Source: a virus. Taken from it: 34,552 bases of DNA. How positions within the stretch are numbered: position 1 is the stretch's first letter; each line of letters opens with the position of its first letter. The stretch covers positions 1-34,552 of IMG/VR virus record IMGVR_UViG_3300050821_005410; one strand, 5' to 3'. The position numbers were made by a program, and so were the translations under genes. Positions 5,051 through 34,552 of this stretch are shown one piece after another. The notes beneath the pieces are model-generated. The model worked only from the letters and a program-made list of their open reading frames with translations. It was not told the origin of the DNA and did not search any database.

Positions 5051-6609
5051 CAGAATATCCTCATTACAGGATTTGTCATATCAACCCGTGGCTTCCCTTG
5101 CATTTTATCAGCAGTTATCCTGTCACTAGCTATTTCTAAACACCCATACCCTAGGGCATCCATGGGGTGTGATGCCATGTTCTTATTGGGCTTATCCTTA
5201 TATCGTTCTTCCCCTGATACTGCTACTCTGGCAAACACATAATCTTTTACAAACCCTTTAAACAAGGTAGGACAATGCTTTCTATCGAGCAACAACCCAG
5301 GCTTACCATCTACCATCTTATTTAGAAAGTATTTAACCGAGGCAAGACGTGGGTCTATATCGTTTGTACGTGCTCCGCGTGTACGAATACCAAGTGATGA
5401 TAGCTCACCAATACATGACATTTCCTCTACCACTTCACTTCTACTATTACCGGCCGGGTCTGCAACCGAATCTCCCACTTTACAATACGGAAAATCCTTA
5501 GCTAATGATGGAATGACAATAGAGTCGGCAAAACTCCTTATTCCCATACCATCGCCTACGTATTCCTTTAAAATCATCAATTGACCACGGGGAGATAATT
5601 GCATCACAACACAAGCAGGCGTTAAACCAAAATCCCATCCTAATAATAACTTTTCTCCCTGGATTGCACTTAATGATTCTACTGCATGAAAATCCGGATT
5701 AAATTCAGGATACACGCGCTTACCAAACCCAACAGAGCCATATTCTCCAAGACAAAATACCTTAATAAACTCTTGTGATTGCCCTTCCGCCAGCATTTCA
5801 TAATAGTTATCAGGTAAATGATTAGCATTATCAGCACAAGGATTTCGCACCCACTTATTGTCCTCATTCTTTATCAATCCCGGTGGTTGCTTAAATAATT
5901 TATGATTCTCAAATTGTTGCTCTTCAAAGTCTTTAAATATCCAATGATCATCTTCGGGCGGATTCGTATCTGCAATAATTCCAGACCAATAGGGTTCTTT
6001 ACAAAAAGCCTTACTAGGATAGCGATTAACACGACCCTTCATATGCGCCAAAGCCGCTTTTGGGACCTCGGATAGTTCATTGATATAACACCCCGTTAGC
6101 TCCAGGGATTTAATCTTTCTTACGTCCTCGGGCCTATCTAGTGCTATAAATAACAATTCTAGCTCTACTATCCCCTTCCCATCATTAAAGCTATGCTCAT
6201 ACGTCATGATTGGCTTTTGACGTTTTCTAATATCGCCTAACTCTTCAAACCAAGCAAGCCAAGTAGCTAAGGTTGTTGTAGATAATTCACCGCTTGTATT
6301 TCTTACAATTCCCCATCGGCTTCTTCGTCTATTTGCATGCCACACTGGCATACTACAGGCACGTTGTACAATCTCTGTAACTGCCCACGTTGATTTTCCA
6401 CTACCATAAGGTCCCATAATGACACGGACAAAGCTGTTATCGCTATGAGCAATATGACCAGTTGCAGTTGGAACATAGATTTTATCTTCTCTAGTAGCAT
6501 GTATAATCATCCCTGTGTCATTTAATGTTATTTGACGCTCTACACCTTTTTGTCGTTGTTGTTCAATCTCTGCAATGCGTCTTGCAATAGCCGATGCGGT
6601 TAAAGTCAT
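5050..6609 (-). CDS. Terminase large subunit
   Basis: The 519-residue product has the two terminase domains. The ATPase has a Walker A motif GPYGSGKS at residues 66-73 and a hydrophobic strand ending CYINELSE at about 174-181 as the Walker B region. The nuclease domain starts near residue 320 with LLGWDFGLTP, whose Asp (about 326) is the first metal ligand of the RNase H-like fold, and a later VADPAG segment probably carries another. It pumps DNA into the prohead through the portal and cuts the concatemer. The ATG at 6609 overlaps the stop of the upstream zinc-ribbon gene, and the 3' end overlaps a 55-aa gene. Confidence 0.94.
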   Translation of the reverse strand: MTLTASAIARRIAEIEQQRQKGVERQITLNDTGMIIHATREDKIYVPTATGHIAHSDNSFVRVIMGPYGSGKSTWAVTEIVQRACSMPVWHANRRRSRWGIVRNTSGELSTTTLATWLAWFEELGDIRKRQKPIMTYEHSFNDGKGIVELELLFIALDRPEDVRKIKSLELTGCYINELSEVPKAALAHMKGRVNRYPSKAFCKEPYWSGIIADTNPPEDDHWIFKDFEEQQFENHKLFKQPPGLIKNEDNKWVRNPCADNANHLPDNYYEMLAEGQSQEFIKVFCLGEYGSVGFGKRVYPEFNPDFHAVESLSAIQGEKLLLGWDFGLTPACVVMQLSPRGQLMILKEYVGDGMGIRSFADSIVIPSLAKDFPYCKVGDSVADPAGNSRSEVVEEMSCIGELSSLGIRTRGARTNDIDPRLASVKYFLNKMVDGKPGLLLDRKHCPTLFKGFVKDYVFARVAVSGEERYKDKPNKNMASHPMDALGYGCLEIASDRITADKMQGKPRVDMTNPVMRIF

Positions 6610-6800
6610 TTTTCTAATACTTGTTTGGGCGGTTGAGTTTTATAGGGAGCATTCTTATAGTTTTCGCGTAAATGCTCTTGCGTAGTATAACGTGCACCGC
6701 ATTTTGTACACTCACGTCGTCGATAGATTTGATTTCTGTTCTCATCTTTGGTTGTCTCAACAACACGCGAATGAGTGTAATTACAAGCTCTACATTGCAT
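6606..6800 (-). CDS. NrdR-like zinc-ribbon protein
   Basis: The 64 residues closely follow the N-terminal zinc ribbon of NrdR. There is a CxxC pair at 3-6, SRVVET, a D-x-x-x-x-x-IYRRREC stretch, a second CxxC pair (CTKC) and ARYTTQEHL. The ATP-cone that follows in NrdR is absent. NrdR represses ribonucleotide reductase genes, and the ribbon alone can bind DNA. In phages such stand-alone ribbons often precede the terminase, and the role here is unknown. It is coupled to neighbours on both sides, with TAATG at its start and a 4-base overlap with the terminase start. Confidence 0.75.
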   Translation of the reverse strand: MQCRACNYTHSRVVETTKDENRNQIYRRRECTKCGARYTTQEHLRENYKNAPYKTQPPKQVLEK

Positions 6801-8415: not shown

Positions 8416-8444
8416 GAATAATATAAAATAATACAAAATAATTG

Positions 8445-8473
8445 TTGATATTAAAATATTTATGTAGTATATT
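8445..8473 (+). promoter_or_regulatory. Near-consensus sigma70-type promoter
   Basis: TTGATA (8445-8450), a 17-base spacer and TATATT (8468-8473) lie 31 bases upstream of the ATG at 8504, which has AGAGG. This is one of the best promoter matches in the window. It would drive the two small rightward genes at 8504 and 8695, divergent from the packaging operon. Confidence 0.6.
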
Positions 8474-8503
8474 GTATTTTCACAAACAAAAGAGGTAATA
8501 AAA

Positions 8504-8674
8504 ATGAAAACTATAGATTGGGAAGGCAAGGGAAATATAACTAAAGAAATTTATCAATTTGTAATTGAAAAAATAGAATACTGGAAAGATGAGATAGAAA
8601 AAAGTGGAAAAAATGATATAAAAACTGGAATAGTTTTAGCATTAGAACAATTAAAAGATTTTATAGAATATTAA
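8504..8674 (+). CDS. Small acidic helical protein, 56 aa
   Basis: The ATG at 8504 follows AGAGG with good spacing and a strong promoter. The 56 residues are rich in Lys, Glu and Ile and form a predicted two-helix unit ending ALEQLKDFIEY. No family is recognised. It is the first of two rightward genes between the packaging and replication operons, likely expressed early. Confidence 0.72.
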   Translation: MKTIDWEGKGNITKEIYQFVIEKIEYWKDEIEKSGKNDIKTGIVLALEQLKDFIEY

Positions 8675-8694
8675 AAACATAATTGGAGATGAGC

Positions 8695-8871
8695 ATGTAC
8701 GTATACATACAGACAGAAAAAAGCCCTGATTTATGGACGGTTGGTTTTTATAAGGTAGACGGGGAATTTTTCCCAGAAAGTGATCATAGCGACAAAGAGG
8801 AAGCAGCCAAAAGGGTTGCTTTGATGAACGGACAAAAGTTAGTTAGTTACGATCCAGAGTTGGAGAAATAA
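8695..8871 (+). CDS. Small conserved phage protein, unknown
   Basis: The start chosen is the ATG at 8695, six bases after GGAG; longer frames from upstream starts would contain that site. The 58 residues (MYVYIQTEKSPDLWTVGFY, then ESDHSDKEEAAKRVALMNG) resemble a small beta-alpha protein seen in many phages and prophages, of unknown function. It ends three bases before the convergent endolysin gene. Confidence 0.7.
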   Translation: MYVYIQTEKSPDLWTVGFYKVDGEFFPESDHSDKEEAAKRVALMNGQKLVSYDPELEK

Positions 8872-9310: not shown

Positions 9311-9326
9311 CCGCTCCGAGGAGCGG
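9311..9326 (-). terminator. GC-rich hairpin between nuclease and endolysin
   Basis: CCGCTC (9311-9316) and GAGCGG (9321-9326) form a 6-bp GC stem around a 4-base loop. On the minus strand TTTAACTTTC follows. It may partly terminate or protect the transcript upstream of the endolysin, whose AAGGA site comes next. Confidence 0.35.
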
Positions 9327-10949: not shown

Positions 10950-11772
10950 ACGTTACTCCTGATTTACTTAAATACTTATTGATTACACGGGATAGAGAAT
11001 CACCTCCATTGGGTTTTTTATTTTGCACAAATGCCTCTTTAGGGGTTATTTCATCATTCCATAGCTCATTTTGCAGATAAGTAGAAGGGTGAGGAATATA
11101 TTGACAATTTTGCCATTGACTATCATTTTCTAATCTATTCTTAACATCATCACAAATTAACAATTCAATCTTGTATAGCTTTTTCCTATCCCATATTCGC
11201 TTTGCTCTTATTTTGTTTTTCTTTACTGGGTTTATTTTCCAATAATTTTCAAAAGAATCATCATTGGCGTGCTGGCGTGCAACGTCAGTTGCACATATGT
11301 CTTTAGTATTATGTTTATTTATGTCTTTAGTATTATCAGTATTACGTAGTCCCTCGTTTCCGTTCGTGTGCACTTCCGCTAGTGTGGGTTTCTGTACGTG
11401 CGGTGCAGATTCAAGCCACGCTTGAGTTTTATCGAATTTCTTGCCGTTTAATATGCGAATTTGCACATGTTGGTATTGCCCTTTCGCACACTTGTTTTGC
11501 ACGTACTCGATTAAATTTGCACGACGTAAATAGGAGAATATTTTTTTTATCTTTGCGTCACCAAAACCATAAACATTTCTTATGTTTTGTTTAATTGTTT
11601 TCCAATTGGGTGTTTTTGAGTAGAGATAACACCATACTAAGAAAGCATCACCGTCCTTAATATTGTTTATCACATTGTTGTTTATTTGGGTAAAACCAGT
11701 GCATTCTCTGGTTGTTGGTGAATCATCTGAAAGATTATCTAATCCTAGACTGTTGTCATTCGGTTCGCTCAT
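10912..11772 (-). CDS. Lambda O-like replication initiator
   Basis: The start is the ATG at 11772 (MSEPNDN), ten bases after GAGG; a TTG ten codons upstream has no site. The product is 286 residues. Residues about 28-110 are a predicted winged-helix DNA-binding domain (GFTQINNNVINNI, then KIKKIFSYLRRANLIEY). A low-complexity linker (about 130-165) coincides with DNA repeats that look like an origin. The C-terminal part, FENYWKINPVKKNKIRAKR through YIPHPSTYLQNELWNDE, matches the tail of many phage O/replisome-organizer proteins. It should bind the origin within its own gene and recruit the P-like loader. Confidence 0.82.
   Translation of the reverse strand: MSEPNDNSLGLDNLSDDSPTTRECTGFTQINNNVINNIKDGDAFLVWCYLYSKTPNWKTIKQNIRNVYGFGDAKIKKIFSYLRRANLIEYVQNKCAKGQYQHVQIRILNGKKFDKTQAWLESAPHVQKPTLAEVHTNGNEGLRNTDNTKDINKHNTKDICATDVARQHANDDSFENYWKINPVKKNKIRAKRIWDRKKLYKIELLICDDVKNRLENDSQWQNCQYIPHPSTYLQNELWNDEITPKEAFVQNKKPNGGDSLSRVINKYLSKSGVTYDQHGNTIDSFR
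11264..11345. other. Candidate replication origin inside the O-like gene
   Basis: The linker-coding part of the O-like gene holds stacked repeats: GGCGTGC twice (11266-11272, 11274-11280), a perfect 7-bp inverted repeat (11277-11283 with 11288-11294), and a 16-base direct repeat ATGTCTTTAGTATTAT (11297-11312 and 11321-11336). The repeats give NTKDI twice in the protein. Lambda and P22 also carry their origins inside the O-type gene. Assignment is by analogy. Confidence 0.5.
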
Positions 11773-11802
11773 GCTATAATTACCTCTGTTGTATGGACGC
11801 AA

Positions 11803-11940
11803 TGAGCCGTGATTGCCAATCTCTGGTGTCCGGTTGTTCTAAAAGCACGATTGGTTTATCTTGGCGGATTGCACAATCATGCGCTGTATATAAAATGTTC
11901 CAGCAGCTCGGAACAGTGAAGTAACCTAGCTGCTACCCCA
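11803..11940 (-). ncRNA. Candidate C4/P4-CI-type antisense RNA leader
   Basis: This untranslated stretch upstream of the O-like gene is clearly more GC-rich than its surroundings. It carries competing inverted repeats: AGCAGCT/AGCTGCT (11902-11908, 11928-11934), GTTCC/GGAAC (11897-11914), and repeated GATTG/CAATC units (11811-11821, 11867-11878, plus GATTGG at 11849-11854). A start-less minus-strand frame contains NILYTAHDCAIRQ and DTRDWQSRL, resembling Ash/Icd-like reading frames that overlay P4 CI and P1 c4 RNAs. The placement (promoter, leader, replication genes) matches P4. This is inference; a covariance search for the C4 RNA family is the deciding test. Confidence 0.5.
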
Positions 11941-11947
11941 TCTTATC

Positions 11948-11976
11948 ATTATACCTCAAACTTTTAACCATCCGAA
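11948..11976 (-). promoter_or_regulatory. Candidate leftward early promoter
   Basis: On the minus strand a perfect TATAAT (11953-11948) lies 17 bases after TTCGGA (11976-11971), a poor -35 match. It would start transcription near 11940, just before the structured leader and the O-like gene. No other good candidate drives the replication operon. A weak -35 box suggests activation or regulation. Confidence 0.45.
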
Positions 11977-12113: not shown

Positions 12114-12311
12114 ATGAACAATAATAAAGATAAAAATAGTAAAGATAAAGCATTTCATTTAATAATGCCAAGGGAAACCTGGCTCTTAATTAAGAAGGCA
12201 GCCGTAGTTAATGATTGTTCTATGGGGGATGTGGTGGTGCATTGCGTAGAAAAGCATCGCAAGAAATTAACTGATAATTTTAACGATATTGGAGATATAG
12301 AGCTTTCATAA
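12114..12311 (+). CDS. Arc-like ribbon-helix-helix DNA-binding protein
   Basis: The 65 residues consist of a Lys/Asn-rich arm and a ribbon-helix-helix core. AFHLIMPRETWLLIKKAA lines up with the Arc repressor pattern F-x-L-x-x-PRE-x-x-x-L-x-x-K-x-A, followed by N-x-x-S-M and an amphipathic helix ending RKKL. Arc-type dimers insert the beta ribbon into the major groove. It is the first rightward gene, divergent from the replication operon and its candidate antisense RNA, so a role in the early switch is likely. The ATG has GAGG five bases upstream. Which promoter it controls is unknown. Confidence 0.7.
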   Translation: MNNNKDKNSKDKAFHLIMPRETWLLIKKAAVVNDCSMGDVVVHCVEKHRKKLTDNFNDIGDIELS

Positions 12312-18180: not shown

Positions 18181-18753
18181 ATGTTAAGAGTTAGTGATGA
18201 TGATTTATGGCTTTACTATAGCCACTATGAAAAAAGCAAAGGAAATCTCACAAGAAAATATTGTAAGGCTAATAATGTAGATTATGTAAAAATTAAAAGA
18301 TTTTTAAATAGATACACCTATAAAAAAAATGCACCTAAGGTGTTTTATGAAGAGCTTATTTCTTGGCATAAGAAATATATAGAGTCAGGCCTTAGCCCCA
18401 AAGTATTTTGTAAAAAAAATAATCTTAATATTTTGGAGATTTCTTGCATCGGTACACATTTAGAATATCTGGCTACCATTGAAAGATTAAAAAAAGAAAG
18501 AGGCGATCCAATTATTCCAAGTCAATTACAAGAAACAAAAGAACCATATAAAGATGCAAGTTTTTTTAATATTATTCCAAAAAAAGAATCTGTGACAGTA
18601 AATGAAAATCAAATTACTTTTGATAAAGTCGAAGTGATAGCAGAAAAAAATGATATTGAGCTAACTATAAAAAAAGGAATTAAAGTTATTTTATCTCCTT
18701 CTATCGAATCAAAAACCATTATTAAAATAATTGACTTACTAAAGGAACTTTAA
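18181..18753 (+). CDS. IS66-type TnpA-like protein
   Basis: This 190-residue protein has two predicted helix-turn-helix segments in the first 90 residues and a polar linker. Its C-terminal domain reads IELTIKKGIKVILSPSIE, then KIIDLLKEL, the pattern that closes IS66 TnpA (OrfA) proteins. TnpA and TnpB are accessory proteins needed by IS66 elements with the TnpC transposase. It abuts TnpB exactly (TAA then ATG), as in IS66. No TnpC follows, and inverted terminal repeats are not evident. Confidence 0.62.
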   Translation: MLRVSDDDLWLYYSHYEKSKGNLTRKYCKANNVDYVKIKRFLNRYTYKKNAPKVFYEELISWHKKYIESGLSPKVFCKKNNLNILEISCIGTHLEYLATIERLKKERGDPIIPSQLQETKEPYKDASFFNIIPKKESVTVNENQITFDKVEVIAEKNDIELTIKKGIKVILSPSIESKTIIKIIDLLKEL

Positions 18754-19104
18754 ATGTTAATACCCTATGAAAACAAAACTATTTACATGGCATCAAAGCC
18801 AGTCGACTTTAGAATGTCTATCGATGGCTTATCGAGTTTAATACAAAGAGAACAAGGCACTCATTTGCATGATGGTAGTATCTATGTATTCTATAACCAA
18901 CATAAAGACAAGATTAAATGCTTATTTTGGGACAGAAACGGGTTTGTTCTATACTATAAGCGTTTAGATAAGTGTAAATTTAAGTTTAAAGAAATGATGA
19001 ATTCGATTGAAACAATCAGTGCCGATGACTTGGAAGTGTTATTAGCAGGCTTTGAACCGCATAAAACGCACAAAAAACCTTTTCTATTAACAAATGCTGG
19101 ATAA
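18754..19104 (+). CDS. IS66 accessory protein TnpB (OrfB)
   Basis: The full-length 116-residue protein has the IS66 OrfB signature: the YMASKPVDFRMSIDGL block, a GSIYVFYN strand, DKIKCLFWDRNGFVLYYKRLDK, and a C-terminal LEVLLAGFE. It is unrelated to the RNA-guided TnpB nucleases. Its biochemical role is not established even in IS66. It is intact here but no transposase gene accompanies it, so it is either a deletion remnant or a retained phage gene. Confidence 0.85.
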   Translation: MLIPYENKTIYMASKPVDFRMSIDGLSSLIQREQGTHLHDGSIYVFYNQHKDKIKCLFWDRNGFVLYYKRLDKCKFKFKEMMNSIETISADDLEVLLAGFEPHKTHKKPFLLTNAG

Positions 19105-33823: not shown

Positions 33824-34552
33824 TTATGACAATACAACCACAGCGTATTGTGGGTGCCATGAAAACCCGCATAACAAATCTATACGCATATAGTTTTGAT
33901 AACCTAAAATATCACCTGTTTGAGTAACCGCTAGTGACAATCCAGTCTCTGGATCAACCGCTACAGACGCATAAGGCACTTGCAGTTTGTAAAGTGGAGG
34001 ACATACGATATCTAGCCCACGCGAGGGGTAAGCGACGTTTACGTTATGCGTACCTACCATGGTTACTGCTGCGTCATCCGGTATCGCATTACTTACGTTG
34101 CGGTTAGGATTAGTGGTATCCGAAATAATAGTAGGCGATACTAGTACTGTGATATTACCAGCACCATCAGAACTAGCATTAGCAGTTACTACAAATTGCA
34201 TATTTTGACCAGTTGCAGCACGTCCTACAGGGTTAACGGATTGAACGCCTGCAATGGATATTAAATCACCGGGTACAAAGTAGTTAGTGACACTAAATGA
34301 TGCACCATCCATTACAATCGTATTTCCTGATGAAACCGCACCGTTTACTAATAAAGTATCAGATGAATGTAAACGCGGACCTGCGCCAGCAGTATGATTT
34401 TTAATATTTTGAGATTGGAATATATCAAAATAAGATAAGTGACCGATTGCTGAAGAGCGTACTATATCTTCGTTAAATACAGGCGTGAAGTTATTAAGTA
34501 GTGCACCTTTTAAGCTCGAACCATCGCGCACAGTCATGGCTAAATACGCATC
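33824..34552 (-). CDS. Major capsid (coat) protein, P22 gp5-like, C-terminal part
   Basis: This is the remainder of the coat gene that begins at 581; the first codons here (34552-34455) repeat 98-1. An internal Met at 34537 is not the start. The region holds the insertion-domain-like segment typical of P22-type coats (YFVPGDLISIAGVQSVNP, then GQNMQFVVTA) and ends FSWHPQYAVVVLS. With the other part it makes a 403-residue HK97-fold coat subunit. Confidence 0.88.
   Translation of the reverse strand, partial: DAYLAMTVRDGSSLKGALLNNFTPVFNEDIVRSSAIGHLSYFDIFQSQNIKNHTAGAGPRLHSSDTLLVNGAVSSGNTIVMDGASFSVTNYFVPGDLISIAGVQSVNPVGRAATGQNMQFVVTANASSDGAGNITVLVSPTIISDTTNPNRNVSNAIPDDAAVTMVGTHNVNVAYPSRGLDIVCPPLYKLQVPYASVAVDPETGLSLAVTQTGDILGYQNYMRIDLLCGFSWHPQYAVVVLS
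34455..34552. repeat. Terminal direct repeat, copy 2 (circular join)
   Basis: This segment is identical to 1-98. Joining 34454 to 1 restores a continuous capsid gene, so the repeat is an assembly overlap or a sign of a circularly permuted chromosome. Confidence 0.95.

Follow-up and report, generated by a model that had tools for sequence, protein, structure and literature searches.

A conserved, probably structured leader RNA ahead of phage replication genes, with a promoter-like site directed head-on through it

Genome map and replication region

The window (here the whole stretch of DNA analysed, the 34,552 nt of IMG/VR virus record IMGVR_UViG_3300050821_005410) begins and ends with the same 98 bases (positions 1-98 and 34455-34552 form an exact direct repeat). 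A gene split by the window ends, probably the coat gene, reads continuously across this repeat and lies next to the scaffold gene. Because of the terminal repeat and the continuity of this gene, we take the window to be a complete virus map, circular or terminally redundant, of about 34,454 bp, a property overlooked by the first-pass annotation that had been made from the sequence alone. Profile searches found a P22-type portal and other virion proteins, and none of the window proteins scanned matched an integrase family. The region at 10.0-13.5 kb has no DNA similarity to sequenced phages.

Leftward genes for an O-like replication initiator and a P-like helicase loader are closed off by an intrinsic terminator, and a small gene whose product is weakly Arc-like diverges from them (Table 1). 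The divergent gene is the first of a rightward operon; most of the relatives whose sequence extends far enough have a similar one. As the first-pass annotation had recognised, an untranslated leader lies between a minus-strand TATAAT (the -10 box of the putative promoter pL) and the O-like gene, whose start codon is at 11772. From the sequence, pL transcription is expected to start near 11941, and hairpin A, the first of three structural elements, begins about 7 nt past that point. In about ten members among the relatives, a TATAAT- or CATAAT-like -10 box is placed 6-16 nt ahead of hairpin A, with poor -35 boxes; the L005/L015/L017/L033 group has no clear -10 there.

Further along the leftward strand, two small rightward ORFs (8420-8871) break up the genes between those for the endolysin and the small terminase, and promoter-like sites occur on both strands near 8420-8473. 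Together they suggest that the late genes have a promoter of their own.

Table 1. Coordinates of the replication region, the leader elements and the promoter-like sites in the window
Feature	Position	Strand	Basis or detail
O-like replication initiator, 286 aa	10912..11772	-	PHROG 9474/270 replication initiation protein, E 3e-12 and 5e-12
P-like helicase loader, 301 aa	10044..10949	-	PHROG 109, E 3e-9
Intrinsic terminator closing the replication unit	9311..9326	-	CCGCTCCTCGGAGCGG TTTAACTTTC
Shine-Dalgarno AGAGG of the replication initiator	11783..11787	-	sequence
Promoter-like site pR, TTGTCA-16-TATAAT, TGn before the -10	11753..11780	+	overlaps replication gene start, faces leader
Element C, GGACAC (11831-11826)/GCGTCC (11800-11795), with invariant TTGGC (11819-11815)	11795..11831	-	
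Hairpin B, GCATGATTG (11882-11874)/CAATCGTGC (11853-11845), inner UC/GA, hexaloop CGCCAA (11866-11861)	11845..11882	-	
Alternative stem GTTCC (11914-11910)/GGAAC (11901-11897), then TTTTATAT	11896..11915	-	scans as terminator; shares bases with hairpin A
Hairpin A, AGCAGCT (11934-11928)/AGCTGCT (11908-11902), conserved loop, here UUACUUCACUGUU	11902..11934	-	
-10 box TATAAT of putative pL	11948..11953	-	sequence; weak -35 TTCGGA 17 nt upstream
Small divergent gene, weakly Arc-like (ribbon-helix-helix)	12114..12311	+	PHROG 582 Arc-like repressor, E 0.008

Relatives and covariation of the leader

Relatives were first found in IMG/VR through the O-like protein, and the leader proved similar there. 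Viral and genome contigs were scanned by pattern, and the matches were checked against a covariance model of our own. This gave 20 distinct leaders including that of the window; these score 62-102 bits, other matches remaining below 16 bits. One significant copy was found per genome in all 11 relatives searched whole. A pattern scan of 84,980 species genomes returned 14 matches, of which the covariance model confirmed only one, in contig JAHFOW010000001.1 (L110; 34,065 bp), which belongs to a MAG and resembles a phage genome. A looser pattern, beginning CGGCCAAG, hit 92 stretches in viral contigs; the only known true members among them were L051 and L052 (same contig as L004), and most of the others had no covariance-model match. 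The leader of L003, compared by blastn with phages and plasmids, gave only chance matches of 20-26 nt, and a search of the window and its relatives with all Rfam families matched nothing except a tRNA in L034. The leader RNA is previously undescribed, with no matching Rfam family, and it occurs in a widespread group of uncultivated phages; the bacterial viruses that bear it are small and apparently non-integrating.

Two observations on these records may be added. L110, a contig of phage-genome size, was binned into a MAG of the Planctomycetota, which is either a host hint or a binning error. The records of L005, L017 and L084 encode a serine recombinase of 192-225 aa (PF00239, E about 1e-38) that is absent from the window; is it an invertase, or a resolvase for circular multimers?

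Folded as a single sequence, the window leader is only modestly better than its shuffles (z -2.2 on either strand), so that this fold alone could be chance. The reality of the leader rests decisively on comparison: compensatory changes in related phages, on which the first-pass annotation had made its proposal depend, were found as double changes across the 20 distinct sequences. Taking hairpin B and element C together, 97.6% of cells pair (such counts of cells are inflated by kinship among the 20 sequences, even though these include several different stem variants), and double changes occur at 8 of the 17 pairs. None of 500 shuffles reached the observed pairing, and a slide of the partner by one column lowers it to 22-39%.

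Considered separately, the 9-bp stem of hairpin B is 97.8% paired, with double changes at five of its nine pairs, and closes on the hexaloop CGCCAA (GGCCAA in two members). The family stem of element C, GGAYGC/GCRUCC, encloses an invariant UUGGC and is 96.7% paired, with double changes at two of six pairs. Repeated GATTG/CAATC units had been singled out earlier as complementary segments; the pair that closes hairpin B is indeed conserved, but the copies in element C are peculiar to the window (AGATTGGCAATC), relatives having AGTTTGGCAATT, TTGTTTGGCATA and others in their place. Loop B and UUGGC are complementary over 5-6 bp in all 20 leaders. Since both sides are invariant and thus free of covariation, their pairing is predicted from complementarity, and the retention of UUGGC in L121 and L124, despite loss of the local CCA, points to loop B as its partner. 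Between the leader and the start codon of L004 (400-480), four tandem ACGTCCATACACAG-like units repeat the 3' arm of element C.

Hairpin A is more variable. Its stems include AGCAGCU, AGCAAG, GGUGG, GGCGGG, GGUGAG, GCUGGG, GGUGGA and others (13 distinct stem sequences among the relatives), and the arms remain complementary: 93.6% of cells pair and none of 5000 arm shuffles did as well, a result favoured by our having picked the arms by eye. Most members keep a UACUUCAUGUU-type loop; L039 has no typical hairpin A. The two complementary pairs reported earlier, AGCAGCT/AGCTGCT and GTTCC/GGAAC, are both present in the window as overlapping alternatives, the second stem drawing on the loop end and on the bases right after the first stem of hairpin A. 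An H-type pseudoknot was considered for hairpin A in the AGCAGCT group and rejected, no nucleotide remaining to cross the 7-bp stem; for this reason the two stems are treated as alternatives. Of 19 relatives, 12 have an alternative stem of 5 bp or more (variants include GTTCTC/GAGAAC and GTACT/AGTAC). In the window it is followed by UUUUAUAU in the RNA and scans positive as a terminator, making it a possible attenuator; the combination of this stem with a U-run is found in only part of the family.

The leader precedes replication-initiator-like proteins of several distinct types (the family was profile-tested for the window protein, and judged by reading for the others, four of which are cut by the locus end). 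The swapping of initiator types behind a constant leader argues that the leader RNA is an independent module, and makes autoregulation by one initiator protein unlikely. In L005, L015, L033 and L124 the conserved start codon after the leader seems to open a short ORF, about 20-130 nt past element C, with the replication protein some 125 nt later; the short ORF is a possible leader peptide.

Strand of the fold and the head-on promoter

The mismatches indicate which strand folds. Read on the leader strand, hairpin B has 11 G-U cells versus 1 A-C, and all helices together have 14 versus 5; moreover the leader strand out-folds its antisense, relative to shuffles, in 17 of the 20 sequences. From the G-U excess and the better folding of the leader strand, the functional fold is most likely in the leftward transcript. 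The same figures speak against a fold that acts as DNA rather than RNA, for instance within a replication origin or as a single-strand initiation site. That the leader adjoins a replication initiator, and that element C alone has no strand preference (3 G-U versus 4 A-C), would suit such a role, which we nevertheless regard as very improbable. Judging by the covariation, we are left with little doubt that the locus encodes the leader at the 5' end of the leftward replication transcript, and that this leader represents a structured RNA family new among phages.

The first-pass annotation had missed a site on the opposite strand, pR, which is directed through the leader. It is the only promoter-like site in the window to match at 11 of 12 positions, and the best-scoring of the genome. 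Its -10 box sits between the Shine-Dalgarno sequence and the start codon of the replication gene, and its start, again deduced from sequence, is expected near 11787. The placement is a family trait: ATTATA, which reads TATAAT on the opposite strand, is found 1-4 nt ahead of the ATG in 18 of the 20 members, against a background of 0.19% of SD-ATG sites in the same data, and this position is retained though the proteins encoded there differ. TTG occupies the -35 position in 14 of those 18, although single -35 boxes are no better than shuffled ones. We infer from this conservation that pR is a promoter. In most relatives, of the consensus promoters in the interval from the replication start to the divergent gene, pR is the main one, and it therefore probably serves the rightward genes as well. 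Should both promoters be active, their transcripts would be perfectly complementary over the entire leader, about 155 nt. On the rightward strand after the leader, the window has no terminator-like site that would give a discrete antisense RNA.

Possible modes of replication control

The reading we prefer, although we rate it at somewhat under an even chance, is that the leader is a cis-acting replication-control switch that works like the Inc/Cop or pT181 antisense systems of plasmids. The leader would fold into hairpins A and B and element C, with loop B (CGCCAA) pairing with the UUGGC of element C, and with hairpin A swapping with the GUUCC/GGAAC hairpin, which in some members is followed by the U-run. 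The rightward pR transcript would be a perfect antisense of this leader; antisense pairing and head-on transcription would disturb the leader pairings, so that less replication initiator is expressed for as long as pR is active; this repression would relax once pR is silenced, possibly through the Arc-like protein. We infer, from sequence features, that both promoters work and that antisense or head-on transcription could unsettle the fold and reduce initiator expression. Several points weigh against the antisense switch: pR may be merely the promoter of the rightward genes, its -35 boxes taken singly do not surpass shuffled sequence, a clear terminator for a discrete antisense RNA was not found in the window, the loop B/UUGGC contact is too invariant to covary, and the alternative stem with a U-run is confined to part of the family.

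In pT181 countertranscript attenuation, the leader has two alternative hairpins, one of them terminator-like. The terminator-like U-run stem here is, unlike that of pT181, weak, and only part of the family has it; the likeness lies in a replication gene leader under an opposite transcript (title cited in PMC10724649). IncI, IncFII and pT181 plasmids all meter replication by antisense control (titles cited in PMC10724649). The I-complex/IncFII systems (Inc RNA/RepZ, CopA/CopT) resemble the phage locus in combining a structured initiator leader with an opposite-strand promoter-like site, and in a CGCCAA/UUGGCG hexaloop sequence, here a putative contact, whose complement lies farther down the same transcript (titles cited in PMC10724649 and PMC7646527). 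Loop B is complementary to UUGGCG, which those titles give as the motif of contact in the IncI antisense system. In contrast to these plasmids, however, the CGCCAA loop here belongs to the leader instead of the antisense RNA, an O/DnaD-like initiator, variable in type, stands in place of RepA/RepZ, a leader peptide of the RepY/Tap kind and a defined antisense end are unmatched, and the window matches no plasmid antisense family in Rfam. With initiator, leader peptide and antisense end unmatched, we say that the phage leader would work like these systems, not that it is one of them.

The first-pass annotation had placed the leader with the C4/P4-CI antisense RNAs (RF01695; P1, P7 and P4; targets c4-a1b1, RF03163), in which case a small RNA processed from it would confer immunity by repressing in trans. 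The resemblance is genuine in outline: C4, too, is a phage RNA in the leader of early or replication genes, and segments of it are complementary to other stretches of its own transcript, loop B here is complementary to a downstream site, and, as had been noted, no CI-type repressor is visible (HTH_3 was found neither in the window nor in nine relatives). Membership nonetheless fails. The window matched neither RF01695, whose covariance search had been proposed as a check, nor RF03163, whether at the gathering threshold or at E<=10, and the 19 relatives had no match to RF01695 or RF03163 at the gathering threshold, despite strong matches in the positive controls (RF01695: P1 68.8 bits, P4 74.9 bits; RF03163: P1 51 bits); conversely, our own covariance model found no match in P1 or P4. 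C4-type target copies would lie on both sides of B, with a1/b1 (RF03163) upstream, but in the leaders read TTGGC is found only downstream of hairpin B. The Ash/Icd-like frame that had been reported is a 13-codon ORF, MIVQSAKINQSCF, whose start, frame and peptide are unconserved in relatives, and the next gene is a replication initiator, not an antirepressor or kil gene after icd/ash. The anatomy differs as well, C4 being one long stem and two hairpins over 87 positions where the present leader has three separate elements, and here no lysogeny genes were found and a conserved head-on promoter-like site is present. We therefore consider a C4-like trans-acting RNA highly improbable. Superinfection immunity appears unlikely, given that a tyrosine integrase (PF00589) was not found in the relatives' virus records, that no CI-type repressor was found, and that the only true match in species genomes was the phage-like contig L110; immunity through loop B would moreover be unspecific, because this loop is nearly invariant among divergent phages. 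What survives of the earlier proposal is the plausibility of RNA-based control as a switch, in view of the conserved alternative pairings before the replication genes, although its C4 identity does not.

The main rival of the antisense switch is a leader that acts like the put antiterminators of HK022, binding RNA polymerase so that transcription continues past the terminator of the replication unit and reaches the late genes, which share the strand. In HK022, putL follows directly after PL, and put needs no phage protein to act on terminators at a distance of 10 kb (PMC9378689). The placement of hairpin A right behind pL is similar, hairpins immediately downstream of a phage operon promoter being common to both (PMC9378689); an intrinsic terminator separates the leader from the late genes in the window and in six relatives, those of the relatives being intergenic, comparable to that of the window and 2.3-3.3 kb downstream of the leader; the portal gene is on the leader strand in all eight relatives where it was found; and the leader is independent of initiator type. 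We still judge this reading unlikely. A put element is about 70 nt with two stem-loops, as against about 150 nt and three elements here, HK022 gives no match to our own covariance model (R1) at E<=10, the late genes seem to have their own promoter near 8420-8871, and the conserved head-on promoter, a feature that sets this locus apart from put, would be left unexplained. Also unlikely, and the less likely of these two, is a cis-acting regulator that is bound by a protein or refolded by a signal, in which the opposite promoter would be only an early rightward promoter and its overlap with the leader functionless. Single-stranded motifs are strongly conserved (the UACUUCAUGUU-type loop A and UCCGCCAAGAU of hairpin B), the rightward genes have pR as their leading promoter candidate, and binders can be named: the Arc-like protein, whose divergent gene accompanies the leader in most relatives, the ribosome, or a host RNA-binding protein. 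But the initiator families differ, making control by the initiator itself unlikely, and the opposite -10 is fixed in place even where the encoded protein differs.

Returning to antisense control, a broader version can be sketched, which we consider rather doubtful: that the new RNA family gives apparently non-integrating P22-portal phages a plasmid-style antisense control of their initiator, the leader, head-on promoter and divergent Arc-like gene forming a portable cassette that stays constant while initiator types swap, and that might support an episomal (phage-plasmid) state. Extrachromosomal mycobacterial prophages are comparable in lacking integration functions and in using RNA in replication control (PMC7157519); there, however, a noncoding RNA beside parABS is needed for replication, whereas the phage RNA described here leads into the gene of a protein initiator. 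The leader is a covariation-supported structured RNA outside Rfam that marks a control point of the replication genes, and it makes testable the question of whether phages with neither repressor nor integrase time or meter their replication by cis-encoded antisense, as plasmids do.

Two other features of the window may be recorded. The region 18181-19104 on the plus strand, in which a 190-aa ORF is followed by a transposase-like ORF (18754-19104; PHROG 623, E 4e-26), looks like the remnant of an IS66-type insertion inside the phage genome. Immediately upstream of the large terminase gene, a small protein with an NrdR-type zinc ribbon is encoded on the minus strand (6606-6800; PF22811, E 6e-13).
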